DNA of 47,788 bases, taken from NCBI GenBank assembly GCA_002007295.1, contig LNZM01000110.1, positions 1 to 47,788 of the forward strand, in the 5' to 3' direction. The position numbers were made by a program, and so were the translations under genes. This DNA is from Candidatus Epulonipiscioides saccharophilum (GTDB lineage Bacteria > Bacillota > Clostridia > Lachnospirales > Cellulosilyticaceae). Positions 1,838 to 28,278 of this stretch are shown here, piece after piece (the stretch's first letter is position 1; every line of letters starts with the position of its first letter). The notes below the pieces were generated by a model, which searched no databases, was not told the DNA's origin, and was given only the letters and a program-made list of their open reading frames with translations.

Positions 1838-1846
1838 TTAACATAC

Positions 1847-2110: not shown

Positions 2111-2125
2111 AATAATATTTTATAC

Positions 2126-2213: not shown

Positions 2214-2244
2214 CCATTTTTTAAAAAAAATTCCAAAAAAAGGC

Positions 2245-2271: not shown

Positions 2272-2354
2272 ATAATTTTGAAAAGGTTCTTGAAGAAACC
2301 TTTATAAAAAAAAAATAGGCAAGGATGCCGCGTTTATTCAAGGAGGAATTTAAT

Positions 2355-3593: not shown

Positions 3594-3607
3594 TTAATGA
3601 TATATAT

Positions 3608-3644
3608 ACTCACTTAATGAATTTTTCATTAGGTGAGTTTTTTT
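3608..3644 (+). terminator. Terminator of flagellin 2
   Basis: ACTCACTTAATGAA / TTCATTAGGTGAGT long stem with one mismatch or G-T pair, followed by seven T. A partial copy (ATTCACT-T-AGTGAAT plus T-run) sits at 3859-3879 on the far side of a family A repeat. Confidence 0.9.
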
Positions 3645-3654
3645 ATGTGTTTTT

Positions 3655-3805
3655 TTAGGGGACTGTCGCTTCATAGACTCCAGCGAAGTAGGAACAATAT
3701 TAAGTTGTTGACCAATGGAGTTGACGTAAAATTGCGGGGGAGGTGTCAGCGTTAGCTGACGGAGGGAGAAAGCGTGCATACAAGTTTTTGTTACTTCTAA
3801 GTAGT
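3655..3805. repeat. Dispersed palindromic repeat, family A
   Basis: Contains CTCCAGCGAAGTAGGAACAATATT, then GGGGGAGGTGTCAGCGTTAGCTGACGGAGGG with hairpin TCAGCGTTAGCTGA, then AGAAAGCGTGCATACAAGTTTTTGTTACTT. The tail AGAAAGCGTGC marks several other copies (5944, 17644, 24898, 28172). The copy lies between two versions of the flagellin 2 terminator. Confidence 0.75.
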
Positions 3806-3858
3806 TAATTTTCTTAAATTCCCATGTATGGAGTTAGGGCGATAAATTGAAGATATAT

Positions 3859-3879
3859 ATTCACTTAGTGAATTTTTTT
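3859..3879 (+). terminator. Partial second copy of the flagellin 2 terminator
   Basis: ATTCACT-T-AGTGAAT followed by seven T, preceded by GATATATAT as in the first copy. It probably arose by duplication and was later separated by the family A repeat. Confidence 0.65.
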
Positions 3880-3967
3880 ATGTATCGTTAAACAGCTTGT
3901 TTATCAATTGATGCACCGATTGATTTTCCAATCTGAATTTTATTTTTTAATTTTTTTAAAATTATAC

Positions 3968-3994
3968 TAAAGTTTATTTATTTTAATACGATAT
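3968..3994 (+). promoter_or_regulatory. sigma-D promoter of flagellin 3
   Basis: TAAA at 3968-3971, 16-nt spacer, ACGATAT at 3988-3994, one mismatch from consensus. The leader is about 90 nt. Confidence 0.8.
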
Positions 3995-4091
3995 ATATAT
4001 TAGAAAATAAAACAATAAAAAATGAAAATAATAGGTCTCATATCATAAAATGGCATGGACGCTATATTGAATATTCAGGGAGGAATTTAAT

Positions 4092-5330
4092 ATGAGAATT
4101 AATACAAATTTATTAGCAGTAAATTCACAAAGGAATTTAGGAATCAATCAAGCAGATCAAGGATCAATAATGGAGAAATTATCATCCGGGCTACGAATTA
4201 ATCGAGCTGGAGATGATGCGGCCGGATTGGCGATCTCCGAAAAGATGAGAAATCAAATAAAAGGGTTACAACAATCTAGTAGAAATTCAGAGGATGGGAT
4301 ATCCTTAATACAAACAGCAGAAGGGGCATTGGGAGAGACTCATGAAATGTTAAAAAGGATGAGAGAAATGTCCATTCAAGCAATGAATGAAACTTATACA
4401 AGTGAAGACAGAAAAAAATTGGATATAGAGTTGCAACAACTTATTACAGAAATAGATGGTGTTGCAGATAAAACACAATTTAACGAACAAGACTTATTAT
4501 TAGGAGATCCAACAGGCAAAGGTCTTGATAAAGTAGCATCTGCAAGAGTAAAATTAACAAGCGCACAAGCAAACTATTTCAATAAGATGGGTGAGTATCA
4601 ATCTGCTCTAGGAGTAGCTTATTCTATAGAGAATGCTACGAGTGTAATGCAGGCAAAAGATTTAATTATTAAATTGGAGCAAGACATAGCAGCGTTAGAA
4701 ACTAAGGCGGCGGGAAAAAGTGATGCAGCATCAGCGCAAGCAATTTTAAAGAGTGTAACAGATAAGCAAGTATCATTAGCAAGCGCACATGCGATTATAG
4801 CACGTGAGGAGGCAAAAGGTGCATCCGTAAAAGCTTCAGCCGAAGCAATTAGGTTAGTAGCAGCTTCAATTGAAAGAACATCTGTTGTTCCTGCAGCCGG
4901 AGAGGTTCAAGCAGCGATGAACCAAGAAGTTGGCCCAAATGAATTTAATTTTCAAGTTGGAGCTAATAATGGCCAAAATATTCAATTAAATATTAAAGCT
5001 ATGAATGCTATAGCACTTGGATTAATAGCAACAAAGATAGATACAGCGGAAAGTGCTGACTTGGCGCTAAGCACAATAGATGCGGCGGTAGAAATCGTAT
5101 CAAGACAACGAGCAGAACTCGGTGCGGTGCAAAATAGATTGGAGCATACGGTTAAGAATCTAGACAATACAGCTGAGAATTTACAGTCTGCGGAATCCCA
5201 AATTAGGGACGCTGATATGGCTCAGGAAATGGTTAATCTAACTAGATCCAATATTCTTGCGCAAGCTTCTCAATCTATGTTGGCTCAAGCCAACCAAGCT
5301 CCCCAACAAGTTCTTCAATTATTAGGCTAA
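4092..5330 (+). CDS. fliC: Flagellin 3 with helical central insert
   Basis: Third flagellin, 412 aa. The N- and C-terminal filament domains are almost the same as in the other two (MRINTNLLAVNSQRNL; SQIRDADMAQEMVNLTR; QAPQQVLQLLG). The insert (about 140-278) again has short helical periodicity (IAREEAKGASVKASAEAIRL). The start follows AGGGAGGAATTTAAT. The promoter is slightly weaker than those of the other two. The three copies are full length with no frameshift, so all are probably functional, perhaps building a mixed filament. Confidence 0.97.
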   Translation: MRINTNLLAVNSQRNLGINQADQGSIMEKLSSGLRINRAGDDAAGLAISEKMRNQIKGLQQSSRNSEDGISLIQTAEGALGETHEMLKRMREMSIQAMNETYTSEDRKKLDIELQQLITEIDGVADKTQFNEQDLLLGDPTGKGLDKVASARVKLTSAQANYFNKMGEYQSALGVAYSIENATSVMQAKDLIIKLEQDIAALETKAAGKSDAASAQAILKSVTDKQVSLASAHAIIAREEAKGASVKASAEAIRLVAASIERTSVVPAAGEVQAAMNQEVGPNEFNFQVGANNGQNIQLNIKAMNAIALGLIATKIDTAESADLALSTIDAAVEIVSRQRAELGAVQNRLEHTVKNLDNTAENLQSAESQIRDADMAQEMVNLTRSNILAQASQSMLAQANQAPQQVLQLLG

Positions 5331-13961: not shown

Positions 13962-14684
13962 CTAACTTGCATTTTCAAAGTCAGAATAATAAGTTTGGCC
14001 ATCTATTGTATATTCTATACTATAGTGATTCGGAGTTTGAGTTTTAGTATCGGGATAAGTTATAAAGGCGCTGAAGTCAGTACATCCGCCAGCTTTTCGA
14101 ATAGCACTTTCGAGGTCAGATTGAGCACCGTATCTATTTACTTTACTGTCCTGTGGTGTTATGTTATAAGCATTGGAAACACCGCCTAATGAATCTGCAA
14201 TGACGTGACCTTCATCTAAAGTGGGACTTTCGGTTCCTGGAACTTTGGCCTCATCGGAATAATATCGACCGGATTTTAAAACAGGTTCTGAATCATCATC
14301 TTGAAGAATAATTTTTTCGGCGAAAACGGCAACTAGTTGGCCGTATTCATTGGTGATAGCATAGTAATCACGGTCACCATAGCCGATGTCAACAATTACG
14401 TTAGGTTCTCTATGACCGGATAAGTTTCCACCTTCCACTTCTAACCATTTATGATCGGCTAATAAATTTAGGTCTGCAATATTTTCGACATCATTTAAAT
14501 CTTTCACAGTTTCTTGTGTGGTAGTTTTTTGTATGGTAGTTTCTTTTTGAGGAGTTTCTTTTTGAGCATTCTCTAAAGTAACTTTGTTTTTATCTACCGT
14601 TTTTTTCTCATTTATGCCACATCCGGATAAACATAAAGATGTTATTACAGTGGCGCTACATAAAATCGTTAAATACTTTTTCAT
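13962..14684 (-). CDS. DNA/RNA non-specific endonuclease lipoprotein
   Basis: Secreted nuclease of the endonuclease NS / Spd-Sda1-like type, 240 aa. Lipobox LSGC puts Cys22 as the lipid anchor, followed by a Thr/Gln/Lys-rich linker to about residue 70. The nuclease domain carries LDEGHVIADSLGG, the counterpart of the DRGH motif with the general-base His, and NITPQDSKVNR with the metal-binding Asn. The frame is open further upstream, but AGGAGAAAAAAT precedes this ATG and the lipobox then falls at the right distance. It would degrade extracellular or incoming nucleic acid. A paralogue with a different anchor lies immediately upstream. Confidence 0.88.
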   Translation of the reverse strand: MKKYLTILCSATVITSLCLSGCGINEKKTVDKNKVTLENAQKETPQKETTIQKTTTQETVKDLNDVENIADLNLLADHKWLEVEGGNLSGHREPNVIVDIGYGDRDYYAITNEYGQLVAVFAEKIILQDDDSEPVLKSGRYYSDEAKVPGTESPTLDEGHVIADSLGGVSNAYNITPQDSKVNRYGAQSDLESAIRKAGGCTDFSAFITYPDTKTQTPNHYSIEYTIDGQTYYSDFENAS

Positions 14685-14801
14685 TATTTTTTCTCCTGAA
14701 TTAATTTGATAGATCAACTTTTAGTTGTAGTTACTCATGTGATCTGTTTACAAAATTTATTACTTTTGAGGTACTGCTACCTCGTAATTATATCATGAAA
14801 T

Positions 14802-14835
14802 GAAAAAATGAGCTACCCCTTTTTGAACGCTCGTT
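14802..14835 (-). terminator. Terminator after the second nuclease gene
   Basis: Minus-strand reading: GAGC, 15-nt loop, GCTC, then ATTTTTTC. Related in sequence to the element at 5958-6024. Confidence 0.6.
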
Positions 14836-14844
14836 TTGTGATTA

Positions 14845-14892
14845 ACCTCTCAGTCACTGCGTGACAGCTCTCCTAGAAGGAGAGTCTAGTTA
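14845..14892. repeat. Dispersed palindromic repeat, family B
   Basis: CCTCTCAGTCACTGCGTGAC followed by AGCTCTCCTAGAAGGAGAG: two adjacent hairpins, GTCAC-TGC-GTGAC and CTCTCCT-AGA-AGGAGAG. Same family as 15905-15965, 26174-26222, 42225-42270 and 47270-47310. Confidence 0.85.
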
Positions 14893-15741
14893 ACTTGCAT
14901 TTTCGAAGTTAGAATAATATACCTGACCATCGATAGTATATTTGTAACTATAATAGCTTGGAGTTTGAGTTTCATTATTGGGATAGCTTATTACGGCACT
15001 GAAGTTGGTACATCCACCGGCTTTCCGGATAGCTTTTTCCATTTCTGCTTGAGCGCCATGTCGATTGACGGTACTATCTTGAGGTGTTATGTTGTAAGCA
15101 TTGGATACTCCACCTAATGAATCAGCAATGACGTGACCTTCATCTAATGTTGGGCTTTCGGTTCCTGGAACTTTGGCCTCATCTGGATAATATCGACCGG
15201 ATTCTAAAACAGGCTCGGTACGATCATTTTGCAAAATAATTTCGTCGGCTAGAACAACAACGAGTTGACCGTACTCATTGGTTATAGCATAGTAATTGCG
15301 GTTACCAAATCCTATATTAACAATTACGTTTGACTCTCGGTGACCAGATAAATCTCCACCATCTACTTCTATCGTTTTATGTGTATCCAATAATTTTATG
15401 TCTGCAACGTTTTTTATGTTAGTTAAACTGTTTTCGGATACTGCCTGTTCGGATTCAGCTGACGCTCCGTTTTCGGCCGTATTTTCGTTTTGCGATGTAC
15501 TTTCTTGTGTGGTTGTCGTCGCTTCACTTGCTTTATCATTGGATGATGAACTAGATAACTTAGGTGTCTTTACAACGATAGAAGTATTTTTAATTTTAGG
15601 TAATTTGAATCCGAACATTGAAAATATTTGAGCTACAAATAATATGGCTCCAAGAATTGCAATAAGGTATATTTTACTTCGCACTCCAAAATATACTACT
15701 AATGTCAGTATTAAAAAAATAAAAATTTCCGACTTACGCAT
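14890..15741 (-). CDS. Membrane-anchored non-specific endonuclease, paralogue
   Basis: Paralogue of the preceding lipoprotein nuclease, 283 aa. The C-terminal 165 residues are very similar, with the same LDEGHVIADSLGG and NITPQDSTVNR catalytic blocks. The N-terminus is unrelated: two hydrophobic segments (about 5-20 and 24-44) and then a 60-residue Ser/Thr/Glu/Asn-rich linker. So the same catalytic domain is presented on a transmembrane anchor instead of a lipid. The start follows AAGGAGGTAATTAAGC. The stop codon falls at the edge of a family B repeat. Confidence 0.87.
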   Translation of the reverse strand: MRKSEIFIFLILTLVVYFGVRSKIYLIAILGAILFVAQIFSMFGFKLPKIKNTSIVVKTPKLSSSSSNDKASEATTTTQESTSQNENTAENGASAESEQAVSENSLTNIKNVADIKLLDTHKTIEVDGGDLSGHRESNVIVNIGFGNRNYYAITNEYGQLVVVLADEIILQNDRTEPVLESGRYYPDEAKVPGTESPTLDEGHVIADSLGGVSNAYNITPQDSTVNRHGAQAEMEKAIRKAGGCTNFSAVISYPNNETQTPSYYSYKYTIDGQVYYSNFENAS

Positions 15742-17277: not shown

Positions 17278-17720
17278 CGATATTATTTTTGCTACATTTT
17301 ATAAATTCTAAATGGATTTTATAAATACTCACAATATTTTATGCTCACGATGCTAATTTATATGACTTTCATTCAGGTTCCCCGCTCAACCTCGCCGACC
17401 AGGCTCTCCTTCTAGGAGCATAGCCGGGAACTTAAAAATCTTTTAGTTAACTTTACCAAAAGGTTTTTCTGCAGGGCTTTCGTCAGTAAGCCTATGGTAT
17501 CAATCGTTTGAGGGATTGTACTACGTGTAGATTAGATACAAGCCCCCGCATTTATGCGTGGGGTAATTGACCTGTATGCCTTCCAAGGAAACTGTCATAA
17601 AATCCGAGGAAGCGATGCCTCCCTCCGGGTTCATATCAGGGAGGGAGAAAGCGTGCATACAAGTTTTTGTTGCTTTCAAGTAACTTGCAAATTTTGCATT
17701 GTATTTCTGTCAGAGATTGG
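17278..17720. repeat. Repeat-rich intergenic stretch with IS605-like hairpin
   Basis: Between the Sel1 and uxaB genes there is no supported gene. 17400-17440 has fragments of family B and family A (AGGCTCTCCTTCTAGGAG, CATAGCCGGGAACTTAA). 17455-17566 looks like a second IS200/IS605 right end: hairpin CCCC-CGCA-TTTA-TGCG-T-GGGG at 17543-17563, preceded by a structured stretch (CAGTAAGCCTATGGTATCAA). 17590-17690 is a family A copy ending AGAAAGCGTGCATACAAG. Confidence 0.6.
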
Positions 17721-17826: not shown

Positions 17827-19269
17827 TTACTTCGTGAGAGCATTTTTAATTCCATTTTTTAATATATCCTTTAAATATTTTGTTACTTGCTCTTCTAAAT
17901 CGGCTAATTTACTTAAATCGGTCTGCCAAAACTCGGACAAGGTTTTGTGGACAATTTCTTCTATACTATCTTTGGTTTTCCATAATTGATGGAAAAAGTC
18001 TAGGGATTCGAGGTCATCTTTAATTTTATAAGTTTGGCCGTTGTCTCGGTGACCGATGTAATCGTCGCCTTGTTTTTCTATTTGATAAAATCTTATTAAT
18101 CCGGCGATAGAAAATGCAAATTGTTTTGGTGCGGCATTAAATTTATTTACATAATCCAGTATTGTTGGGATACATCGAGCTTCAAATTTCGAAGTATTAT
18201 TAAGAGTTATATCTATCAGGTTGTGAACGATATGAGGATTATCAAATCTTTCTAAAACAGAATCTGCGAAGCTTCTTAATTCGGCCAAGTCCATGTTGGT
18301 AGCAGGAATTATTTCGTTACTAATTAAGTCTTTTTCGAATTGGCCAAAAGTATCGTCTCTAAAAAATTCTAATACTGTGTTAAAACCGGCTAAATACGCT
18401 AAAGGAACGACAGCGGTATGGCTACCATTTAGGATACGAACTTTTCTTTTTTTATACGGCGTTACATCTTCTGTCCAAATTACGTTGGCTGCCGTTTTAT
18501 GAATTGGTAATCTATCTTTATATTTTTCATCTGCTTCGATTACCCAAAGGTTGAAAGATTCGCAGGCTACTACCATTTTGTCTTCGTATCCTAATTTTTC
18601 GGTTATTGATTCTATTTCATTTCTCGGATATCCGGGTACGATTCTATCGACTAAGGTACTGGCAAATTCATTATTTTTTTCTATCCAGGTTTTAAATTCT
18701 TTTTCTAAATTCCATTCATCAGCATATTGTAAGACGAATTTTTTTAACATTGCACCGTTGTTGTCGATTAATTCTACAGGTAAAAGTAGCATACCTTTAT
18801 TTGGATCTGCATTAAAAAATTTATAGCGATGATATAAGAAGGCGCAAATCTTTGCAGGAAATGATTTTTGAGGAGCATTCTCTAATTTTTCTTCCTTATA
18901 ATAGGTAATTCCTGATTCGGTAGTATTCGAAATAATTACTTCTAAATCCGGACTTTCGGCTAATCGAACCAATTCGGAATAATCTTCATAAGGATTTATG
19001 CAGCGAGAAATTGAGTGGATAGTCTTAAATGTTTCTGCATTTCCGCCTCTCATTAATACGTTGTATAAACAATCCTGGCTATTTAGTAGTTCACCTAAAC
19101 CTTCTTGTATTGGTTGACAAATTACTATTCTGCCTTGATATTCTTCGGTTTCGTTTGCTAATTCCACCATCCAGTCTGCAAAAGCTCTTAAAAAATTACC
19201 TTCTCCAAATTGTAATATTTTTTCTGGGTATTGCGTAAATTTTTTCTCTACTACTGTTTTTATATTCAT
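17827..19269 (-). CDS. uxaB: Tagaturonate reductase (altronate oxidoreductase)
   Basis: NADH-dependent reduction of D-tagaturonate to D-altronate, in the Ashwell-type hexuronate route. 480 aa, the usual length. The N-terminal nucleotide-binding domain has LQFGEGNFLRAFADWMV. The catalytic region contains KKRKVRILNGSHTAVVPLAYL, the conserved Lys-Asn-His cluster of the mannitol dehydrogenase family. The start follows GGAGGGTTTTAATTC. It is transcribed away from the sugar operon at 19634 and shares with it an operator sequence, so the two sides are probably induced together. No altronate dehydratase (uxaA) or uronate isomerase (uxaC) is in the window. Confidence 0.93.
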   Translation of the reverse strand: MNIKTVVEKKFTQYPEKILQFGEGNFLRAFADWMVELANETEEYQGRIVICQPIQEGLGELLNSQDCLYNVLMRGGNAETFKTIHSISRCINPYEDYSELVRLAESPDLEVIISNTTESGITYYKEEKLENAPQKSFPAKICAFLYHRYKFFNADPNKGMLLLPVELIDNNGAMLKKFVLQYADEWNLEKEFKTWIEKNNEFASTLVDRIVPGYPRNEIESITEKLGYEDKMVVACESFNLWVIEADEKYKDRLPIHKTAANVIWTEDVTPYKKRKVRILNGSHTAVVPLAYLAGFNTVLEFFRDDTFGQFEKDLISNEIIPATNMDLAELRSFADSVLERFDNPHIVHNLIDITLNNTSKFEARCIPTILDYVNKFNAAPKQFAFSIAGLIRFYQIEKQGDDYIGHRDNGQTYKIKDDLESLDFFHQLWKTKDSIEEIVHKTLSEFWQTDLSKLADLEEQVTKYLKDILKNGIKNALTK

Positions 19270-19300
19270 GAATTAAAACCCTCCTAATATGTATTTAAAA

Positions 19301-19317
19301 GTCTGGTAGCACCAATT
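19301..19317. promoter_or_regulatory. GntR-type operator O1 (uxaB side)
   Basis: CTGGTAGCACCAATT. The core TGGT-NNN-ACCA fits FadR/UxuR-type operators. It lies about 10 bp past the predicted uxaB start of transcription. It is identical over 14 bases to O2 at 19554-19570. Confidence 0.8.
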
Positions 19318-19333
19318 TCAAGATAATAACATT

Positions 19334-19362
19334 ACTATAACATTCCATCTTAAAAAAGTCAA
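19334..19362 (-). promoter_or_regulatory. sigma-A promoter of uxaB
   Basis: Minus-strand reading: TTGACT (19362-19357), 17-nt spacer, TATAGT (19339-19334). Start of transcription expected near 19327, with O1 just downstream. Confidence 0.8.
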
Positions 19363-19513
19363 CTTAATTATTAAAAAAGCCAACTTGTTTTTTTTACAAT
19401 GTTTAACATAAAATCATACTATATATTAGTTATTTGTTACTAGCATCAGGATAAAAAATTATATTTGACATATTTTTTTGTGGATTGTCGTATAAAATTG
19501 TTAAAAATTCATA

Positions 19514-19542
19514 TTGCAATTAATGTGTTACAATGTTATACT
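19514..19542 (+). promoter_or_regulatory. sigma-A promoter of the CoA/sugar operon
   Basis: TTGCAA at 19514-19519, 17-nt spacer, TATACT at 19537-19542. Transcription is expected from about 19549, so operator O2 would be transcribed first. The rest of the 364-bp divergent region is AT-rich without further recognised sites. Confidence 0.8.
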
Positions 19543-19553
19543 TAATTTAAATA

Positions 19554-19570
19554 AATTGGTAGCACCAATT
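19554..19570. promoter_or_regulatory. GntR-type operator O2 (operon side)
   Basis: AATTGGT-AGC-ACCAATT, a perfect 7-bp inverted repeat around three bases, a few bases after the predicted start site. The position suits repression by a roadblock. The likely binder is the GntR regulator encoded at 27347-28042. Confidence 0.85.
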
Positions 19571-19633
19571 CATAATTATAATTCATGATTGTTGAGAGGT
19601 TTTTAAAGTTACATAGATAAGGAGAGAATTTTT

Positions 19634-20764
19634 ATGCATTTAAAAGGAATTACTTGGAATCACACCAGAGGAAAATTACCTGTACTTGCTACAGCGCAAA
19701 GATACATGGAAATGCATCCTGGTGTTACAATAGATTGGCAGGCTAGATCGTTAAAAGAATTTGGCGATGCTCCTATTGATATATTAGCCCAAGACTACGA
19801 TTTAATAATACTAGATCATCCATGGATGGGCTTTGCAGCAGAAAATAAAATTTTGTTACCTTTAGAACATTTTTTAGAGCCAGAATTTTTAGCAGATCAA
19901 AAAGCAAATTCTGTTGGTAAATCTTTTCAAAGTTACAATTACACTCATCAATATGCTCTCGCTATCGATGCTGCTTGTCCGATAGCTTTTTATTCTAATG
20001 AAAAGTTAAAGGCTGATAATGCGAGCTTACCTACGACTTGGTCCGAAGTGATAGATTTGGCTAAACGAGGAAAAGTTTACTGCGGTGGTAATGGCACAAG
20101 TATCCTCATGCAATTCTATATGCTTCTTGCTACTAAAACGGATGAAAAACTTTTTGTTGACGGTATTATAGCAGATAAAGAAATACAAAAAGAAAGTTTA
20201 CTAGAAATACAAGAACTTTTCAGTTATTTACCGAACTGTGTATTTTCTAAAAATCCGATTGGAGTATATGAAGTTTTGGCGAGTCCAAAAACAGAATATT
20301 ATTATTGTCCGTGCGATTTTGGTTATTCTAATTACTCTCGAGTCGGATACAGTTCTAACCTAATCACCTCGGCTAACGTGGTAAAATATAATGGCAAAAT
20401 GTTAAAAACGACGCTAGGCGGAGCGGGATTTGCGATTTCGAATAAATGTAAAAATATTGAGTTAGCGCTAGATTATTTAAAATACACTGCATCGGGAGAA
20501 ATACAGCAAAGTATTTATGTAGAAAATGGAGGGCAACCTGGCCATAGAAGTGCTTGGACGAATAGTCGGGCCAATGAGCTAACAAATAGCTTCTTTAATA
20601 ATACTCTTGAAACATTGGATAATGCATATTTACGTCCACGCTATGACGGTTATTTAAGTTTTCAAGAAACAGCTGGTCCGCTAATTCGGGATTGGATTAT
20701 GAACGAAGGTAATGTGGATGAACTTATTGATAATATTCATGATCTTTTTATCTACAGCATATAA
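19634..20764 (+). CDS. Solute-binding-protein fold without signal peptide
   Basis: 376 aa, related to family 1 extracellular solute-binding proteins (features such as DLIILDHPWMGFAAENKILLPLE, ACPIAFYSNEKL, GGAGFAISNKCKNIELALDYLKY). Unlike those, it starts directly with the first strand of the mature fold (MHLKGITWNHTRGKLP) and has no signal peptide, lipobox or membrane segment. AAGGAGAGAATTTTT before the ATG leaves no room for a longer start. It therefore should stay in the cytoplasm, as a ligand sensor, sugar or CoA-ester carrier, or enzyme partner. It is the first gene of the operon, 32 bp before the CoA-transferase, with no permease genes nearby. Confidence 0.85.
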   Translation: MHLKGITWNHTRGKLPVLATAQRYMEMHPGVTIDWQARSLKEFGDAPIDILAQDYDLIILDHPWMGFAAENKILLPLEHFLEPEFLADQKANSVGKSFQSYNYTHQYALAIDAACPIAFYSNEKLKADNASLPTTWSEVIDLAKRGKVYCGGNGTSILMQFYMLLATKTDEKLFVDGIIADKEIQKESLLEIQELFSYLPNCVFSKNPIGVYEVLASPKTEYYYCPCDFGYSNYSRVGYSSNLITSANVVKYNGKMLKTTLGGAGFAISNKCKNIELALDYLKYTASGEIQQSIYVENGGQPGHRSAWTNSRANELTNSFFNNTLETLDNAYLRPRYDGYLSFQETAGPLIRDWIMNEGNVDELIDNIHDLFIYSI

Positions 20765-20796
20765 GTTTATTGGATGAAAAAAATTAGGAGGCAGAA

Positions 20797-23127
20797 ATGA
20801 AACCGTTAGAAGGAATAATTGTGTTGGATTTTGCTCAGTATTTAGCAGGACCATCCGCAGCTTTAAGACTAGCAGATTTAGGTGCTAGGGTTATAAAAAT
20901 AGAAAGGCCACAGGGTGGAGATAATGGACGAAGGTTAGTATTTAAAAATTTAATATCAGATAACGATGGCGTTTTGTTTCATACTATTAATCGAAACAAA
21001 GAAAGTTTTTGTGCGGACTTAAAAAATTTGGATGATTTAAAGATCGTCAAAGAATTAATCAAAAAAGCAGATATAATAATAGAAAATTTTAGACCAGGGA
21101 TAATGGAAAAACTGGGACTTGGTTATGAAGACGTAAAAAAGATTAATCCTAAATTAATTTATGCTACAGTATCTGGATACGGATTAGATGGTCCATGGGT
21201 AAAACGACCGGGCCAAGATCTTATGCTGCAATCTTTATCAGGGCTAACATTATTAAACGGAAGCCGAGACGATCTACCAACGCCTGTGGCGCTTGCTATG
21301 GCTGATACATATGCTGGTATACATTTAGTTCAGGGGATCCTATCATGTTTGTATAGCAGATTTAAAACTGGTGTTGGCGCAAGAGTGGCGGTAAGTTTGT
21401 TGGAATCTATTTTAGATTTACAATTTGAATTTATAGCTACGTATATAAATGATAATTATACTTTACCAGTTAGGGCTAAATTTAACAATGCTCATGTTTA
21501 TTTACCGGCTCCTTATGGTATTTATCAAACTAAGGATAATTTTTTAGCTTTAGCGATGGGATCCGTACCGCTTCTTGGAGAAATTTTAGAGCTTAGTGAG
21601 TTATCTAAGTATGACAATCCGGCTAGTTGTTTTGCAAATCGAGATGAAATCAAAGAATTGATCCAGTCCAAACTAATTCAGGATTCTACCGAAAATTGGT
21701 TGACTAAATTAAAAGAGGTCAATTATTGGGCATCAGAAGTTTTGAATTGGAAAGAACTTATAGATCGTCCGGGATTTAAGTCCTTAGACATGTTAATCAA
21801 TGTCGGTAGACCCGGCCATAGAGATATTATCACAACAAGATGTCCTATTAGGGTTGATGGAGAAGTTTATAAATCCAATAAATGGGCACCAGCTTTGGGT
21901 GAAGATACCTCGAAAATTATGAAAGAATTTAACTTATGTTCTCAGCCAATAGAATCTAGTTCTAAATTAGCCGTAGAATCTAGTTCTGAAAATAATTTGG
22001 TTTTGCCTTTAGCCGGTGTTAAAGTGCTAGATTTGTGTCAATTTTTGGCTGGTCCTTCTGCGGCTTTACGATTAGCGGATTTAGGGGCCGAAGTTCTTAA
22101 GGTAGAACAACCTTCTGGGGATATTTGTAGAACTCTTTATTCTTCTAATTTGATTATCGATGGCGATAGCACTTTATTTCATGTAATTAATCGTAATAAA
22201 GATGCTGTATCCATAGATTTAAAATCAGATGTTGGTCAACTTCAGATTCAGAAGTTAGTTAAAAATGCGGATGTCGTTTTGATTAATTTTAGACCTCATG
22301 TGGCCAAAAAATTAGGTATAGATTACGATTCTTTAAAAGTCATTAATCCTAGCTTAGTCTATGGTGAACTTACCGGATTTGGGCATGTCGGTGAATGGGC
22401 TAACGAGCCAGGTCAGGATTTGCTAGTACAATCTATTTCTGGGATGACTATGGCTAACGGTAACCGAGATAAGTTGCCTACTCCGGCCGGTGTGTCTATA
22501 GCAGATTTGATTAGTGGTCAACATTTAGTTCAGGGCGTTCTGGCTGCGCTTCATCGAAAAGAATTATTTGGGAAAGGTGCTTTGGTGCAGATTAGCATGC
22601 TAGAGTCTATGATGGATCTTCAATTTGAAGGATTTACTACTTTTCTTAATGACGGAAATGAAATTCCTCAGCGTAGCAAAATTAGCAATGCAAACTTTTA
22701 CACGAATGCACCGTACGGTATTTACAAAACTAAAGATTGGTTTATTACTTTAGCGATAGCACCGATTCCTTTACTTGGCCAGTTACTTAATTGTCCAAAA
22801 CTAGAAGAATACAGCGATCCGGTTACATGGTCTACAAAACGTGATGAAATAAAAGCTATTTTAGCTGACCATCTATTAACTAACAACACTCAGTTTTGGC
22901 TCGATATATTACAGCAACATGATATTTGGTGTTCTAACATATATAATTGGGATATGTTATTGGAAACGGATGCTTTTAAAAATTTAGAAATGCTACAAGA
23001 AATAAAATTACAAAGTGGCAAAACCATGACAGTTTTAAGATGCCCTATTTCGATTAACGGCCAGCGATTTTATTCCGATAAACCATCACCTAAAATAGGT
23101 CAGGATAATCATAAATATTTAAATTAA
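20797..23127 (+). CDS. Fused tandem CaiB/BaiF family III CoA-transferase
   Basis: 776 aa: two complete family III CoA-transferase domains in one chain, residues 1-382 and 405-776, joined by a Ser-rich linker (about 385-400). The halves align with an offset of almost exactly 400. Both have the N-terminal VLD-QFLAGPSAALRLADLGA block, NFRPG/NFRPH, and the catalytic Asp that forms the acyl anhydride (D170 in AMADTYAG, D570 in SIADLISG). Family members are usually interlocked dimers of single-domain chains of about 400 aa, so this fusion could form the two-domain ring from one gene. It transfers CoA between carboxylic acids; the acid here is unknown. 20 bp before maoC. Confidence 0.93.
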   Translation: MKPLEGIIVLDFAQYLAGPSAALRLADLGARVIKIERPQGGDNGRRLVFKNLISDNDGVLFHTINRNKESFCADLKNLDDLKIVKELIKKADIIIENFRPGIMEKLGLGYEDVKKINPKLIYATVSGYGLDGPWVKRPGQDLMLQSLSGLTLLNGSRDDLPTPVALAMADTYAGIHLVQGILSCLYSRFKTGVGARVAVSLLESILDLQFEFIATYINDNYTLPVRAKFNNAHVYLPAPYGIYQTKDNFLALAMGSVPLLGEILELSELSKYDNPASCFANRDEIKELIQSKLIQDSTENWLTKLKEVNYWASEVLNWKELIDRPGFKSLDMLINVGRPGHRDIITTRCPIRVDGEVYKSNKWAPALGEDTSKIMKEFNLCSQPIESSSKLAVESSSENNLVLPLAGVKVLDLCQFLAGPSAALRLADLGAEVLKVEQPSGDICRTLYSSNLIIDGDSTLFHVINRNKDAVSIDLKSDVGQLQIQKLVKNADVVLINFRPHVAKKLGIDYDSLKVINPSLVYGELTGFGHVGEWANEPGQDLLVQSISGMTMANGNRDKLPTPAGVSIADLISGQHLVQGVLAALHRKELFGKGALVQISMLESMMDLQFEGFTTFLNDGNEIPQRSKISNANFYTNAPYGIYKTKDWFITLAIAPIPLLGQLLNCPKLEEYSDPVTWSTKRDEIKAILADHLLTNNTQFWLDILQQHDIWCSNIYNWDMLLETDAFKNLEMLQEIKLQSGKTMTVLRCPISINGQRFYSDKPSPKIGQDNHKYLN

Positions 23128-23147
23128 AAATAAAAGGAGAGTTTAAA

Positions 23148-23588
23148 ATGATAAAAGACATATTTTTTGAAGATTTTCAAATAGGTCACCTTAGAGAAGG
23201 CGGATCTCGTACAATGACAGAAACTGATTTTGTTTTACATGCTGGGCACACTGGTGATTTTTATCCTCATCACGTAGATGCAGAGTTTTGTAAGAGTACA
23301 GAATTTGGCCAAAGGATAGCACATGGAACTATGATTTTTAGTATTGGTATGGGTTTACAATGTGGAGATATAAATCCTAGAGCTTTTACTTATGGTTATG
23401 ATAGAATGCGCTTTATTAAGCCGGTCTTCATTGGTGATACGATTAAAACTGTGGTGAAAATTAAGGATAAACGAGATAATCCTAAAAATCCAGCCCGTGG
23501 ATTTGTGACAGAACAGATTGAAATTACTAATCAAAAAGGCGAGTTAGTTTTAGTTTGCGAACATATTATCAGTGTTGAAAAAAAGTAG
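23148..23588 (+). CDS. MaoC-like (R)-specific hydratase
   Basis: 146 aa, hot-dog fold. The hydratase motif is present: D37 and H42 in TGDFYPHHVDAEF, followed by GQRIAHGTMIFSIG. These are the catalytic Asp/His and oxyanion-hole region of (R)-enoyl-CoA hydratases, so it likely adds or removes water on a CoA thioester, matching the CoA-transferase upstream. The start follows AAAGGAGAGTTTAAA. Its last 23 codons are repeated, decayed, right after the stop. Confidence 0.9.
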   Translation: MIKDIFFEDFQIGHLREGGSRTMTETDFVLHAGHTGDFYPHHVDAEFCKSTEFGQRIAHGTMIFSIGMGLQCGDINPRAFTYGYDRMRFIKPVFIGDTIKTVVKIKDKRDNPKNPARGFVTEQIEITNQKGELVLVCEHIISVEKK

Positions 23589-23668
23589 AGTAAAAATATG
23601 AAATCACTAATCAAAAGGTGAACTTGTCCTAGTTTGTAAACATATTATTAGTGTTGAAAAAAATAGAG
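23521..23668 (+). repeat. Tandem duplication of the maoC 3' end
   Basis: AAATTACTAATCAAAAAGGC onward (23521-23590) is repeated as AAATCACTAATCAAAAGGTG onward (23601-23668), about 80 bp apart, with roughly ten substitutions and two single-base gaps. The copy has lost the reading frame and leads into the zinc dehydrogenase ribosome binding site. Confidence 0.9.
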
Positions 23669-23683
23669 GAGTGTGTATTTATA

Positions 23684-24700
23684 ATGAAAGAAATTATGAT
23701 GCAAAATGCTTTTGATGTCGCTATTTTAGAAAATGAAATGCCGGTTGCTAAAGAAGGGGAAGCATTATTAAAAATTTTATACGGTGGAATTTGCGGAAGC
23801 GATCTTAGCAGTTATCGTGGGACGATGAAATACATCAATTATCCTACAGTGCCTGGTCATGAATTTTCAGCTGAAATAGTTGAAATCGGCGATAATGACA
23901 AAGGGCTTAAATCCGGAGACCTTGTTACAGCGATACCGTATTTTAATTGCGGTCATTGTTATTCTTGCCAAAAAGGCTTAGTTAATTGCTGTTCTACAAA
24001 CCAAACCATGGGCATACACAGGACCGGAGCATTCGCAGAATATATCACATTACCAGTGGAAAGATTATTTGCTGGCAATGGTTTATCGGCCAAAACATTA
24101 GCGTTAGTAGAGCCATTTTGCATAAGTTATCATGGAATTAAAAAAGCTAACATTCAAAAGGGTGATAAAGTTCTTATCGTTGGGGCTGGGACGATCGGCG
24201 TGTTAGCAGCGATTGCGGCCTTAGAGAATGAGATAGAATTGACTATTTGTGATATATCGCAAAGCAAGGTAGATTATGCGAAAAAATTTGGCGTTCAAAA
24301 TACTATATGCAACAGTAGTCCGGAAGTGTTTGCTGCCGAAGTTAATCGACTTACGGACGGAAATGGTTATGACATTGTAGTAGAGGCCGTTGGGCTACCA
24401 AGTACATTCCAAAATTGCATGGATGCCGTAGCTTTTGGCGGCAAAATGATTCAACTAGGTGTTGGTAAGCAAAATGTGGATTTATTTTTTACGACTATCC
24501 AACAAAAAGAGCTTAGCATTTATGGATCCCGAAATGCTAGAAGAGAAGATTTTAAGGAAGCCATAGAGTTGCTTTCAAGTGGCAAAATCAAGGTAGATGA
24601 TGTAGTAACAAATATGTACAACTTCGAAGATGCTCCAAAAGCATTTGCAGATTTCCACTCTAATGCAGGATCGATGTTAAAGGTTATGATTGAGTTTTAA
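23684..24700 (+). CDS. Zinc-dependent medium-chain dehydrogenase (candidate L-aldonate 5-dehydrogenase)
   Basis: 338 aa, sorbitol/threonine dehydrogenase-like. Catalytic zinc ligands C37 (GGICGSD) and H59-E60 (GHE). Structural zinc cysteines C89, C92, C95, C103. NAD fold with VGAGTIGVLAA. The upstream in-frame ATG at 23651 lies in the duplicated maoC tail, and AGAGGAG before 23684 supports the shorter form. Related enzymes include L-galactonate 5-dehydrogenase (LgoD/YjjN of E. coli), which makes D-tagaturonate, the substrate of the co-regulated UxaB; that substrate is an inference from context. Confidence 0.88.
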   Translation: MKEIMMQNAFDVAILENEMPVAKEGEALLKILYGGICGSDLSSYRGTMKYINYPTVPGHEFSAEIVEIGDNDKGLKSGDLVTAIPYFNCGHCYSCQKGLVNCCSTNQTMGIHRTGAFAEYITLPVERLFAGNGLSAKTLALVEPFCISYHGIKKANIQKGDKVLIVGAGTIGVLAAIAALENEIELTICDISQSKVDYAKKFGVQNTICNSSPEVFAAEVNRLTDGNGYDIVVEAVGLPSTFQNCMDAVAFGGKMIQLGVGKQNVDLFFTTIQQKELSIYGSRNARREDFKEAIELLSSGKIKVDDVVTNMYNFEDAPKAFADFHSNAGSMLKVMIEF

Positions 24701-24714
24701 ATAAGAATGAAAAT

Positions 24715-24930
24715 GAAAAATATTGCGGGAACTTAAGATTGAAAGTGTATAGAGAAACATTACGGGGCTAGAGCACCATAAGAATCCCTCAGATATTGTT
24801 TCTGCTTCGCTGGAAAGGGAGCTGTCACAAAATTGTGGGGAAGCGGTGCCTCCCTCTCCGAGGGGAGGTGTCACGAAGTGACGGAGGGAGTTGGAGGGAG
24901 AAAGCGTGCCTTTTAGTTGTATTTTAAATT
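24715..24930. repeat. Family A repeat inside the operon
   Basis: Contains GCGGGAACTTAAG, GGAAAGGGAGCTGTCACAAAA, GGGGAAGCGGTGCCTCC, CCGAGGGGAGGTGTCACGAAGTGACGG and AGAAAGCGTGCCTTTTAGTTG, the same modules as in the 94-bp array. It separates the zinc dehydrogenase from the mutarotase by 258 bp, and its hairpins could reduce or uncouple expression of the downstream genes. Confidence 0.85.
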
Positions 24931-24958
24931 AAGAGTGAAAAATATAGGAGGCGAATTT

Positions 24959-25282
24959 ATGCAAAGATATGGGCAAGTAATTAAAGTGAAACCGGATCAA
25001 ATAGAGAACTATAAATATCATCATAAAAATTCTTGGCCGGAAATAAATGCTATGATTAAGGAATGTAATATACAAAATTATTCCATTTATCTTAAAGATG
25101 ATTTTCTATTTAGCTATTTCGAGTACGTTGGTTCTGATTATGACTCTGACATGGCAAAAATGGCCGCCGATAAGAAGACACAAGAGTGGTGGGATTTGGT
25201 AAAGCCGTATCAAACACCATTAAAAACTAAGCAACCTGGAGAATGGTGGGCCGATATGGAAGAAGTATATCATTTAGATTAA
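24959..25282 (+). CDS. L-rhamnose/L-fucose-type mutarotase (RhaM-like)
   Basis: 107 aa, the usual size of the RhaM family (DUF718), which interconverts alpha and beta pyranose anomers. Family blocks are RYGQVIKVKPDQIENYKYHH, SWPEI, SIYLKDDFLFSYFEY and TQEWWDLVKP, with the catalytic His in YKYHH and the paired Trp present. The ATG at 24959 is chosen because AGGAGGCGAATTT precedes it; a longer frame starts inside repeat DNA. 25 bp before the lactonase gene. It fits an L-sugar substrate. Confidence 0.88.
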   Translation: MQRYGQVIKVKPDQIENYKYHHKNSWPEINAMIKECNIQNYSIYLKDDFLFSYFEYVGSDYDSDMAKMAADKKTQEWWDLVKPYQTPLKTKQPGEWWADMEEVYHLD

Positions 25283-25307
25283 AGGAAAACGAGGTGAATA
25301 TTAAAGA

Positions 25308-26168
25308 ATGCAAAAAATTATAGATGCACATTTTCACATATTTGACGTAGATCGGTTTACTGTTGAATGGCTAAAAGATGTAGAGATTTTAAATAGACCA
25401 ATTTTATTAGAAGAGTTCGAAGCATTTAAAAATACAGAAGAGTACGACTTAACCGGTGCTGTCCATATAGAATTGGATAGTATAGCGAGCCAAAAGGGGG
25501 CTGAAAACGATTATTTTTCGAATTTGGCAATAGAAAGAGGAGATTTTGTTAAGGCAGTCATTTTGTATGCTAACATGCTAGATCCAAACATGTCGGATTT
25601 CATTTCTCCTTATTGTTCTAATGACCGTGTTCTTGGCGTAAGGCGTATTTTACATGTAGATGAAACGCCGCCGGGCACGTGTCTAAATAATGTTTTTATT
25701 GAGAATGTAAAAAAATTGGGAGCCTTAGATCTGCATTTTGAAGCATGTATGCGATCTGGCGAAATGGGAGATTTATATAAGTTAGCTAAGCAATGTCCGA
25801 ACACGTTAATTGTTTTAAATCATATGGGTTTGCCTGATGTTGCGGCCTTAAAGGATCCATCTCGTATTGTCGAAATAGATCGTTGGAAACATGGCATTCT
25901 TTTGCTTGCTACTTTAGATAACGTGGTGTGCAAAATATCCGGATTATCGAGTAGTGAACCTAAAGAGATAGAAGAGATAGTTGGATTCTGTACCAGCCAA
26001 TTTGGCCCAGAGAGAATAATGTTTGCTAGCAATTTTCCGGTTTGTAATTTGAGCATAGACTTTGATAGTTGGACCAAAGCGATGCTAGAGCTTTTTGCCA
26101 ATAAAACATCAGCCGAGCGAGATTTATTTTTCTATAAAAATGCTGAACGAATTTATAAAATAAAATAG
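25308..26168 (+). CDS. COG3618-type sugar lactonase (amidohydrolase 2 family)
   Basis: 286 aa TIM-barrel amidohydrolase. The N-terminal metal motif IDAHFHIFD (HxH), VLNHMGLPDV with the barrel His, and FASNFPVCNLSIDFDSW match L-fucono- and L-galactono-1,5-lactonases of COG3618. It should open the lactone made by the sugar dehydrogenase. The ribosome binding site GAGGTG lies about 12 nt before the ATG, slightly far. It sits between the mutarotase and a Gfo/Idh dehydrogenase, which supports the lactonase role. Confidence 0.85.
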   Translation: MQKIIDAHFHIFDVDRFTVEWLKDVEILNRPILLEEFEAFKNTEEYDLTGAVHIELDSIASQKGAENDYFSNLAIERGDFVKAVILYANMLDPNMSDFISPYCSNDRVLGVRRILHVDETPPGTCLNNVFIENVKKLGALDLHFEACMRSGEMGDLYKLAKQCPNTLIVLNHMGLPDVAALKDPSRIVEIDRWKHGILLLATLDNVVCKISGLSSSEPKEIEEIVGFCTSQFGPERIMFASNFPVCNLSIDFDSWTKAMLELFANKTSAERDLFFYKNAERIYKIK

Positions 26169-26230
26169 TAGGCTCTCTTGGCTCTCCTTTTAGGAGAGCT
26201 GTCAACGAAGTTGACTAAGAGGTTAATCCA
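26169..26230. repeat. Family B repeat inside the operon
   Basis: GGCTCTCCTTTTAGGAGAGC, TGTCAACGAAGTTGAC, TAAGAGGTTAATCC: two hairpins (GCTCTCCT-TTT-AGGAGAGC and GTCAAC-GAA-GTTGAC). The variant GTCAAC/GTTGAC replaces GTCAC/GTGAC with pairing kept. It directly precedes the ribosome binding site of the next gene. Confidence 0.85.
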
Positions 26231-26242
26231 AGGAGGTAAGAA

Positions 26243-27319
26243 ATGATAAAAGATATATCCGAATTAAAATATGTACCTGCGATGCCGGAGGATCCAAAAG
26301 CTAGACCAATATACATAGTCGGTGCAGGTGAAATTATTAAGGATGCGCAAGCGCCAGCATACATTTTAGCAGGATATCCGATGAAAGGTATTTACAACCG
26401 AACGGTTGCGACAGCGCATAAAGTGGCCAAAGAATTTGGTATCGAAAAAGTTTACGAAGATCTAGACGAGATGATTGCGGATTGCCATGCTAATAACGGT
26501 GTTTTTGATGTAGCATTGCCTGCTAATTTAACTGCTATGGTTTTACGCAAATTACCAGAAGGTAGCGGTGTTTTAGTTCAAAAGCCTATGGGTGAGAGTA
26601 TAGAAGAGGCGACAGAAATTTTAAATATTTGTAGAGAGCGAAATCTTGTGGCTGGTGTAAATTTTCAACTACGTCAAGCGCCGTATATGATTCAACTGAA
26701 TGAATTATTAAATAGTGGATTAATTGGTGAAATATACGATGTAGAATGGCGTGTGATTACTTTACAACCTTGGCATTTATGGACCTTTTTAAATGATAAA
26801 GAAAGATGCGAAATAAATTATCACAGCATTCATTACATAGATGCTATCAGATCGATTTTCGGTGATCCAACTGCTGTTTGGTGCAAAACAATGAAAAGTC
26901 CCAAAGCACCGAATCTTAGTCAAACATCCAGTTCTATCATACTAAATTACGGCGAAGATATTCGAGTAACGATCAATACAAATCATGGCCATGATTTTGC
27001 GCCCGACTATCAAGATTCTTGTTTAAAAATTGAGGGCACAAAAGGTGCTATAAGACTAACTTTAGGATTGATTTTAAATTATCCAGAAGGTCGCCCTGAC
27101 AAATTAGAATACGTTATAGATGATGGAAAAGGATGGCAAGAAATACCGATTGTTGGTAGCTGGTTTCCAGAAGCTTTCATTGGTTCTATGGGCGGTTTAT
27201 TAAAAAAAATGGAAGATCCTTCTTTTAATTATATGAACAGTGTAGAAGATGCATATAACACGATGCGAGTTGTAGAAGCTTGCTACAAATCTAGCCAAAG
27301 TGGTGGTACTCTTATTTAA
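26243..27319 (+). CDS. Gfo/Idh/MocA family dehydrogenase
   Basis: 358 aa NAD(P)-dependent oxidoreductase. The N-terminal Rossmann fold starts with IYIVGAGEIIKDAQAPAYILAGY. The catalytic Lys is in VLVQKPMGES, where the usual EKP reads QKP. NYHSIHYIDAIRSIFGDP supplies the conserved His/Asp region. The start follows AAGGAGGTAAGAA. In this operon it is the best candidate for the first oxidation of a free sugar to its lactone, although it could also oxidise another ring position. Confidence 0.88.
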   Translation: MIKDISELKYVPAMPEDPKARPIYIVGAGEIIKDAQAPAYILAGYPMKGIYNRTVATAHKVAKEFGIEKVYEDLDEMIADCHANNGVFDVALPANLTAMVLRKLPEGSGVLVQKPMGESIEEATEILNICRERNLVAGVNFQLRQAPYMIQLNELLNSGLIGEIYDVEWRVITLQPWHLWTFLNDKERCEINYHSIHYIDAIRSIFGDPTAVWCKTMKSPKAPNLSQTSSSIILNYGEDIRVTINTNHGHDFAPDYQDSCLKIEGTKGAIRLTLGLILNYPEGRPDKLEYVIDDGKGWQEIPIVGSWFPEAFIGSMGGLLKKMEDPSFNYMNSVEDAYNTMRVVEACYKSSQSGGTLI

Positions 27320-27346
27320 AATTATTTGAATGGACGTGATGATTAA

Positions 27347-28042
27347 ATGGACTTAACTCCAGTAACCAAAGTGACCATAACAGAACAAATAATGGAACAA
27401 TTGGCAAATCAAATTATATCGGGTAGTTTAAAGCCGGGTGAACAATTGCCGACTGAACGTGACTTAGCAGAAATTTTTGATGTTACCAGAGGCCGGGTTC
27501 GTGAGGCTTTAAGAGCGTTATCTCTTATTGGAATGATTATAATAAAACCCGGTGGCGGTAGTTTTGTTTGTAATAAAGACGTTCTGATTCCTAATCGAAC
27601 TATATCCTGGATGTATCATGAAGAATTAAATAATCTGAAGGATATTTATTCGGCTAGACGCTTGATTGAATCCGAGATCTATTTGTCCTGCTTTGATATT
27701 GCAGATCGGCAAACTATTATTCATATCCGAAAGTTGGTCTCTCAGCTGGATAGCCAATTAAGCCCAGCAGCATTCTTAGATCAGCTGAATAGTTTAGATT
27801 TATATGTAAGCTCCAAGTGTGGCAATGGCGTTTACCATAAACTTATGCAAACACTCGTTCTTCTTAGATCTGAATCTTCTATTAACATACTAGGATCAGA
27901 TGAGACCAAATTGTCGGCAATAGAACATAGAAAAAAAATTGTCTCGGCTTTTGAAAAGAATAACCGTATACTATTAGAAAAAAGCTTGGCCGATTTTTTT
28001 AATGATTCTCTAAATTATATCTTGGATCAAGATCAGGATTAA
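27347..28042 (+). CDS. GntR family regulator, FadR-type (FCD domain)
   Basis: 231 aa. Winged-helix domain at residues 9-76 (TEQIMEQLANQIISGSLKPG, TERDLAEIFDVTRGRVREAL, GGGSFV), then an all-helical FCD-like ligand domain. The usual metal-binding His in the FHxxI-ASGN stretch is missing: here it reads LYVSSKCGN. A later His (IEHRKKIVSAF) is kept. It is the last gene of the operon with a weak ribosome binding site (GTGATGATTAA). It is the likely repressor for operators O1 and O2, whose TGGT-NNN-ACCA cores match this subfamily. Confidence 0.9.
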   Translation: MDLTPVTKVTITEQIMEQLANQIISGSLKPGEQLPTERDLAEIFDVTRGRVREALRALSLIGMIIIKPGGGSFVCNKDVLIPNRTISWMYHEELNNLKDIYSARRLIESEIYLSCFDIADRQTIIHIRKLVSQLDSQLSPAAFLDQLNSLDLYVSSKCGNGVYHKLMQTLVLLRSESSINILGSDETKLSAIEHRKKIVSAFEKNNRILLEKSLADFFNDSLNYILDQDQD

Positions 28043-28074: not shown

Positions 28075-28278
28075 CCCTGGAAGGCATAGCCGGGAACTTA
28101 AGAAGTCACAAAATTGCGGGGTAGCGGTGCCTCACTCCCGGAGGGAGGTGTCAGCGTAAGCTGACGGAGGGAGAAAGCGTGCATACAAGATTTTGTCGCT
28201 TTCGAGTAAATTGTAAATTTTGTAAGCTTGCATCGTTTTGCTGTTACCCAGACTTTAATACACGCAGTGACTAAGAGG
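28075..28278. repeat. Family A copy followed by a family B fragment
   Basis: CATAGCCGGGAACTTAAGAAGTCACAAAATTGCGGGG, GGAGGTGTCAGCGTAAGCTGACGG, AGAAAGCGTGCATACAAG, then at 28259-28278 CACGCAGTGACTAAGAGGTT. It fills the space between the operon and the convergent flaR-like gene. Confidence 0.85.

Follow-up and report, generated by a model that had tools for sequence, protein, structure and literature searches.

The locus described here raises the question of which sugar it degrades and by what chemistry. It occupies positions 17827–28042 of contig LNZM01000110.1 (assembly GCA_002007295.1) from Candidatus Epulonipiscioides saccharophilum, a stretch of 47,788 nucleotides (nt) referred to below as the window, and consists of uxaB on the minus strand and an eight-gene operon, both diverging from one 364-bp gap. 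A first-pass annotation read it as an L-galactose route running through a mutarotase, a Gfo/Idh dehydrogenase, a COG3618-type lactonase, a zinc dehydrogenase and UxaB to tagaturonate and altronate. In outline this is supported: a co-regulated route that oxidises an L-galacto-configured sugar by way of a mutarotase, a dehydrogenase and a COG3618-type lactonase. The evidence points to L-fucose more than to L-galactose, however, and three genes had been omitted. We propose, with a probability of about 0.5, a GntR-repressed operon that degrades L-fucose, or a close L-galacto-configured sugar, without phosphorylation, and in which L-fuconate would be loaded onto coenzyme A (CoA), dehydrated by a MaoC-type enzyme and unloaded again.

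Proteins of the window are assigned to families by Pfam (PF) and NCBIfam (NF/TIGR) models with their cut-offs, and the nearest solved structures in the PDB serve as comparison. By these matches uxaB, the mutarotase (PF05336), the Amidohydro_2 protein (PF04909), the zinc dehydrogenase and the Gfo/Idh dehydrogenase are present as first annotated, and a check of the open reading frames (ORFs) of the window confirms the gene coordinates. The features are:

17827–19269, minus strand: UxaB-type dehydrogenase, tagaturonate reductase subfamily (NF002969, 594.7 bits; cut-off 359)
19303–19315, no strand: operator copy on the uxaB side, CTGGTAGCACCAA (motif match)
19334–19362, minus strand: promoter-like TTGACT-17-TATAGT towards uxaB (consensus match only)
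19514–19542, plus strand: promoter-like TTGCAA-17-TATACT with TG before the -10, towards the operon (consensus match only)
19556–19568, no strand: operator copy on the operon side, TTGGTAGCACCAA (motif match)
19634–20764, plus strand: substrate-binding-protein-like (SBP-like) protein, signal-less, predicted maltose-binding-protein fold (PF01547; AlphaFold2/Foldseek)
20797–23127, plus strand: fused CaiB/BaiF family III CoA-transferase pair of 776 residues (PF02515 in two stretches, 614 bits; D170 and D570)
23148–23588, plus strand: MaoC/(R)-hydratase-type enoyl-CoA hydratase with a D37/H42 dyad (PF01575)
23684–24700, plus strand: zinc-dependent medium-chain dehydrogenase (PF08240/PF00107; nearest solved structure RspB, 4ilk)
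24959–25282, plus strand: L-fucose-mutarotase-type (FucM) mutarotase of the RhaM family (PF05336; nearest 7byu)
25308–26168, plus strand: COG3618/Amidohydro_2 lactonase, probably L-fuconolactonase-type (PF04909; NF052480 below cut-off)
26243–27319, plus strand: Gfo/Idh/MocA dehydrogenase, proposed aldose 1-dehydrogenase (PF01408/PF02894)
27347–28042, plus strand: GntR/FadR-type regulator, proposed reader of TGGTNNNACCA (PF00392)

Three of the eight operon genes, encoding the SBP-like protein, the CaiB pair and MaoC, lie inside the span yet had gone unmentioned, and by sequence comparison nothing else in what is here called the module is as well conserved. The SBP-like protein has at least 576 confirmed relatives, and the best 80 of these were examined; together with seven plasmid loci and four from the window's order they make up 91 loci, in which gene presence was scored by tblastn with the window proteins. 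The relatives span six phyla (Bacillota, Chloroflexota, Bacteroidota, Pseudomonadota, Acidobacteriota and Planctomycetota), and none was found on viral contigs. Of the 295 genomes in the order to which the window belongs, 19 match the SBP-like protein at E 0.001, the window's own included; besides the latter, only six matches (E below 1e-70) are of the module kind. CaiB is present in 82 of the 91 loci, MaoC in 72, Gfo in 68, the lactonase in 48, the mutarotase in 20 and GntR in 16, and the MaoC relatives are 48–90% identical to that of the window. Either MaoC or a crotonase occurs in 79 loci; among the 62 loci with at least 21 kb, CaiB is found in 58 and MaoC or crotonase likewise in 58.

The best sequence argument for CoA-thioester chemistry is that two unrelated enoyl-CoA hydratase folds occupy the same slot: six gammaproteobacterial loci lack MaoC and Gfo and carry a crotonase-type enoyl-CoA hydratase after the CaiB pair. 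The gene order of this variant (L075, L077, L086, L089, L095 and L121) is SBP, CaiB, CaiB, crotonase and mostly an aldehyde dehydrogenase, with a GH2 glycosidase adjoining in most; it probably acts on another sugar acid, perhaps one of 3S configuration. The CaiB fusion has both the fold family and the catalytic aspartate of family III CoA-transferases; this residue is kept in all 134 aligned sequences, and D170 and D570 place one in each domain of the window protein. Since the two CaiB domains are separate adjacent genes in three relatives (L034–L036) and fused again in a planctomycete (L105), they probably act as a pair. MaoC, a member of the hot-dog family, retains both residues of the Asp-His dyad in the window; across 69 sequences D37 is invariant and H42 is present in 58. 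Among its matches of known structure are (R)-specific enoyl-CoA hydratases and 4ffu (8.6e-59), a close homologue whose entry is labelled only "oxidase".

The SBP-like protein adopts a maltose-binding-protein fold according to its AlphaFold2 model (pLDDT, the model's confidence score, 95.1), for which Foldseek returns sugar-binding proteins at a TM-score of about 0.8, among them T. maritima MalE3 and the Agrobacterium sulfoquinovosyl-binding protein. A hydrophobic N-terminus, as expected of a signal peptide or lipoprotein anchor, is absent from 89 of the 91 relatives, and the two N-termini that look hydrophobic come from ORFs called too long, within which the usual start lies; as a control, four of five genuine transporter SBPs at the same loci lie above the hydrophobicity threshold. 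Because no signal peptide is present, the protein is likely to be cytosolic. A role as a transport gene was considered and rejected on this ground and because its neighbours are CoA-transferases rather than permeases. Across 29 diverse sequences, 51 positions do not vary. In many Bacteroidota loci, CaiB and Gfo are separated by a member of a second binding-protein-like family without signal peptide, SBP2 (cluster 5; 29 loci, numbered from L027 to L120).

The identity of the sugar is indicated first by the mutarotase, which matches the solved L-fucose mutarotase 7byu at 2.6e-31 (111 bits), against 2.6e-8 for E. coli-type YiiL and 2.9e-7 for a rhamnose mutarotase (37 and 34 bits). The family label "RhaM" was rejected as a marker of rhamnose. 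Homologous loci add further fucose genes. In Flavobacterium, fucP (TIGR00885) and L-fucose dehydrogenase (NF052481) score over cut-off, as does lactaldehyde reductase in one Enterobacterales locus. The glycoside hydrolase (GH) families GH95, GH29 and GH141, the last a fucosidase family, are also found, and in Persicobacter a fucosidase adjoins the module. At least one fucose marker is present at 29 of the 91 loci, many of them Flavobacterium and so not independent. A carbohydrate-enzyme tally of 60 of the 146 large neighbouring ORFs yields no more than one or two per family (among them one GH29, one L-fucose isomerase domain and one rhamnosidase-like domain), too few to decide between sugars. 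One Flavobacterium locus (L107:170–2671) encodes a GH141 protein with a C-terminal RhaM-family mutarotase domain (residues 730–832), a glycoside hydrolase–mutarotase fusion.

In the window's genome, six places score over cut-off for GH29, and four of these matches are near full length, giving at least four alpha-L-fucosidases. For a canonical L-fucose isomerase it offers only three weak PF02952 matches (49.1, 48.6 and 29.6 bits). Sulfoquinovose isomerase is the closest family for one of them, though under its cut-off, and another falls in no family. Given the mutarotase type, the fucose genes at homologous loci and this GH29-rich genome, L-fucose (6-deoxy-L-galactose) appears the likeliest substrate, and the earlier reading probably missed the sugar by a single hydroxyl; L-galactose, which differs from L-fucose only at C6, may be an additional substrate. 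The lactonase is nearest to 6uvz (4.6e-24) and 4dlf (2.5e-13) among solved relatives, and we take 4dlf to be an L-fucono-1,5-lactonase; its best NCBIfam model is the fuconolactonase model NF052480, at 96 bits against a cut-off of 400. That the sugar is L-rhamnose, or some 6-deoxy or L-sugar other than L-fucose and L-galactose, is very improbable. RhaT-like transporters, at least 35% identical, occur at 25 of the 91 loci (19 of one type, 6 of another) and would also suit rhamnose, and the FAH hydrolase is nearest, below cut-off, to 2,4-didehydro-3-deoxy-L-rhamnonate hydrolase. Against this, both RhaT-like transporters scanned fall under the RhaT equivalog cut-offs, the mutarotase scores point the other way, and the links are to FucP, fucosidases and L-fucose dehydrogenase.

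Several of the fucose-type loci lack a dehydratase. Known routes dehydrate free L-fuconate by metal enzymes. The loci of Anaerostipes hominis (L110), a metagenome-assembled Clostridia genome (L042) and Enterobacterales carry a RhaT-like transporter, the lactonase and Gfo, mostly with a mutarotase and a DapA-type aldolase; lactaldehyde reductase is found in three clostridial or enterobacterial loci (L042, L045 and L068). The Flavobacterium loci carry FucP, L-fucose dehydrogenase and the lactonase, and in most an SDR dehydrogenase and a hydrolase. No enolase-type dehydratase lies inside the loci of either group. With the Shinella FucD as query against 29 module-bearing genomes, full-length matches appear in only two (L056, 64%; L091, 40%); the next best, at 36–39% in Paenibacillus and Alicyclobacillus, are shorter proteins of about 375 residues, and ten Flavobacterium-type genomes (G295–G304) give marginal matches or none, except G302 (1.4e-16, over part of the query). 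For the L-fuconate dehydratase FucC/FucD the window's genome has just partial matches, of 29% and 24%, to an unassigned MR/MLE protein and a D-galactonate dehydratase. The gap is cleanest in A. hominis, since other genomes mostly have UxaA-family proteins: it possesses the lactonase, mutarotase, Gfo and aldolase, yet its genome encodes no UxaA-family protein, one ILVD/EDD protein and, as the only FucD relative, a D-galactonate dehydratase. Because these loci lack only the dehydratase, we propose that the module dehydrates the aldonate.

Gene content, the operator, conserved linkage, catalytic residues and the absence of known dehydratases from key genomes are direct observations; the reactions, without exception, and the part played by the binding protein are what we infer. 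A FucM-type mutarotase, Gfo/Idh oxidation at C1 and the COG3618 lactonase would yield L-fuconate. The CaiB–CaiB heterodimer would load this aldonate onto CoA, with the cytosolic SBP-like protein presumably holding the acid or delivering it to the transferase. MaoC would then take water off across C2–C3 to give a 2-keto-3-deoxy acyl-CoA, and the transferase would pass the CoA on to the next aldonate. L-Fuconate has the 2S,3R configuration, and the R-specificity of MaoC-type hydratases suits a 3R substrate. The 2-keto-3-deoxy acid would be cleaved by aldolase and lactaldehyde reductase in Clostridia and Enterobacterales, and by the SDR and hydrolase in Flavobacterium. These cleavage enzymes would be replaced in the window's family by the zinc dehydrogenase and a UxaB paralogue, probably acting on C5; by analogy with the L-galactonate route, the natural guess is that the aldonate would be oxidised at C5 and then reduced again.

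Besides the transporters and the lactonase score given above, several observations weigh against this proposal. UxaA-family proteins occur in 13 of 16 genomes tested, including all six of Flavobacterium type. Shinella, Roseibium and Sinorhizobium have an annotated L-fuconate dehydratase and an SDR in one gene run with module genes (in Roseibium and Sinorhizobium with the hydrolase as well), and the 64% FucD match lies in the Flammeovirgaceae genome of L056. Since these alphaproteobacteria and the L056 genome carry both, the module is not a FucD substitute everywhere; in the alphaproteobacteria either it handles another acid or the two are redundant. Literature passages found on Sinorhizobium phenotypes do not name the module genes. 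In Flavobacterium an SDR L-fucose dehydrogenase is already at hand, so Gfo may act otherwise there. No L110-type aldolase is found in the window's family, in which each of four genomes has one DapA-family match at 24–26% (26% in the window's genome); the zinc dehydrogenase and UxaB paralogue are present where this aldolase is absent. Neither MaoC nor crotonase is found in 12 of the 91 loci, although 8 of these are cut short by their contigs, at under 21 kb, and H42 of MaoC is replaced by valine in 11 of 69 sequences.

Some of these points would suit an L-fucose-type operon in which the module does something else, acting on a second or substituted sugar acid or salvaging a side product in parallel to an ordinary pathway. 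This explanation is unlikely overall but carries real weight: module genes neighbour the annotated L-fuconate dehydratase in the three alphaproteobacterial genera, the CaiB–SBP pair sometimes stands apart from other module genes, and in Flavobacterium loci Gfo and SBP2 come on top of an L-fucose dehydrogenase. It is opposed by the Anaerostipes, Clostridia L042, Enterobacterales and Flavobacterium loci, which amount to a full fucose route minus the dehydratase.

The uxaB gene bears on the L-galactose route as first annotated. Its product is well placed in the tagaturonate reductase subfamily, and the gene shares an operator with the operon. A genome search for uxaA, as the first-pass annotation had advised, locates altronate dehydratase over cut-off on another contig (C47:6421–6822), adjoined by a second uxaB that is 47.6% identical to the window copy. 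Because that other uxaB pairs with uxaA, the window UxaB is best described, on sequence, as a dedicated paralogue of the C47 copy. A divergent uxaB is kept in L034, L035 and L036 at 71–72% identity. The zinc enzyme was to be LgoD; no NCBIfam model reaches its cut-off and no LgoD-named model appeared, although the library may lack one. LguA and BVU_0219, known L-galactose dehydrogenases, are aldo-keto reductases and not Gfo/Idh proteins. LguA groups with plant L-galactose dehydrogenase (GALDH) and Bacteroides BVU_0219 (PMC12632266). Also unsupported here is the hint of a red-algal habitat that had been drawn from L-galactose.

A route from L-galactose through L-galactonate, D-tagaturonate (by a zinc 5-dehydrogenase) and D-altronate (by UxaB) to UxaA encoded elsewhere, with the first three operon genes as accessories, is improbable. 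It gains from uxaB under the same operator, a linkage kept in three relatives, from the presence of uxaA on C47 and from an equivalent route proven in Luteolibacter (PMC12632266). It loses by the fucose-type mutarotase, by the unsupported LgoD assignment and by the distribution of genes: uxaB adjoins the module in only 3 of the 91 loci (L034–L036), all from the window's own family, whereas the genes it ignores are near universal.

As the first-pass annotation had it, the same operator follows both predicted promoters: the core TGGTAGCACCA has exactly two copies in the whole 3.19 Mb genome, both inside the gap between uxaB and the operon (19303–19315 and 19556–19568). Each copy directly follows a sigma-70-like promoter of its own strand, which reads away from the gap middle. 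Promoter-like matches in the gap number 6 against a shuffle mean of 4.2; the count alone is not above chance, and therefore only the placement is telling. The looser 13-mer TTGGTNNNACCAA, with one mismatch allowed, is not specific (138 genome sites against 116 for a control), and a loose-motif scan of the genome for a regulon outside the divergent gap is indistinguishable from background. Homologous operons of other genera have the site too: among 80 loci from other organisms, 13 carry the same regulator, and 8 of these show TGGTNNNACCA no more than 150 bp ahead of the gene for the SBP-like protein, against 0 of the 67 without it; a shuffle control gives a mean of 0.021 and a maximum of 1 of 13. 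Two operator sites also occupy the equivalent divergent gap in each of two congeneric genomes (L034 and L035), and none was found in that of a third relative (L036). Because the motif co-occurs with this regulator across loci, the operator is taken as real and the operon's own GntR protein as its likely reader; the FCD match of this protein, at 22.9 bits, falls just short of the cut-off of 24.3.

Known systems share parts of this arrangement. The mesaconyl-CoA steps of the 3-hydroxypropionate bi-cycle use a family III transferase with a MaoC-type hydratase on hydroxy-acid thioesters, and the window pairs the same two enzyme types; among such CoA-thioester hydroxy-acid cycles we know of none with a sugar acid as substrate or a binding-protein-like partner. 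Cj0483 of Campylobacter jejuni is presumably UxaA-like. It is the predicted dehydratase of a fuc locus that also has a DapA-type enzyme, mutarotase, hydrolase, dehydrogenase and FucP, as do the clostridial and flavobacterial relatives, and for which the passages seen list no CoA-transferase or MaoC (PMC6946681). The non-phosphorylating L-fucose pathway proceeds through FucM, FucA, FucB and the dehydratase FucC, then FucH or FucF and FucG (PMC11199699). The window resembles it in the fucose-type mutarotase, COG3618 lactonase and sugar 1-dehydrogenase, and homologous loci resemble it in having aldolase and lactaldehyde reductase, or SDR and FAH hydrolase. It differs in that the enolase-superfamily FucC is replaced or joined by SBP, CaiB–CaiB and MaoC, that the dehydrogenase is Gfo/Idh, and that in the window's version the known cleavage enzymes give way to a zinc dehydrogenase and a paralogue of UxaB. 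The lgu route of Luteolibacter for L-glucose and L-galactose runs through LguA, LguD, LguC and altronate dehydratase; the UxaB-type reductase LguC and the gluconate/galactonate dehydrogenase LguD are points of likeness, whereas the excerpts of its description name no mutarotase, COG3618 lactonase, CoA-transferase or MaoC and assign altronate dehydratase and KDPG aldolase (PMC12632266).

Repeats and neighbouring genes are recorded separately. The 3' end of maoC recurs right past its stop (23534–23584 and 23613–23663, 82% over 51 nt), apparently what is left of a partial duplication in the space before the zinc dehydrogenase gene. Two copies of a 57-nt repeat (91%) enclose the locus, one at 17640–17696 and the other at 28166–28222, 10.5 kb apart, in GC-richer repeat-like stretches, and similar-looking sequence is seen by eye near 24730–24930; it is possibly a dispersed small element. 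Elsewhere in the window, inspection by eye shows three tandem flagellin-like genes, each with an unusual middle domain (602–5330), and two adjacent membrane- or lipoprotein-like proteins with a near-identical endonuclease-like C-terminal domain in common (13962–15741).

L-Fucose is released from mucus, milk, plant and algal glycans and feeds many bacteria. The pathway proposed here is a variant of a known route, and its CoA step, if real, is as far as found new for sugar acids: no description of CoA-linked dehydration of fuconate or other aldonates by a CoA-transferase and MaoC was found in the open-access literature. The wider proposal, put forward more tentatively than the assignment of the operon itself and at somewhat less than even odds, is that a CoA-dependent aldonate dehydratase, composed of a family III CoA-transferase pair, MaoC or crotonase and a cytosolic binding-protein partner, replaces metal-dependent dehydratases in the L-fucose catabolism of several phyla, gut bacteria included. 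If this is true, sugar acids would be dehydrated also as CoA thioesters, and a transport-type binding protein would have been recruited to cytosolic metabolism. Genes annotated just as "extracellular solute-binding protein", "CoA transferase" or "MaoC" would gain a testable role (the SBP-like relatives alone number at least 576), and the missing dehydratase step would be filled in organisms such as Anaerostipes hominis.

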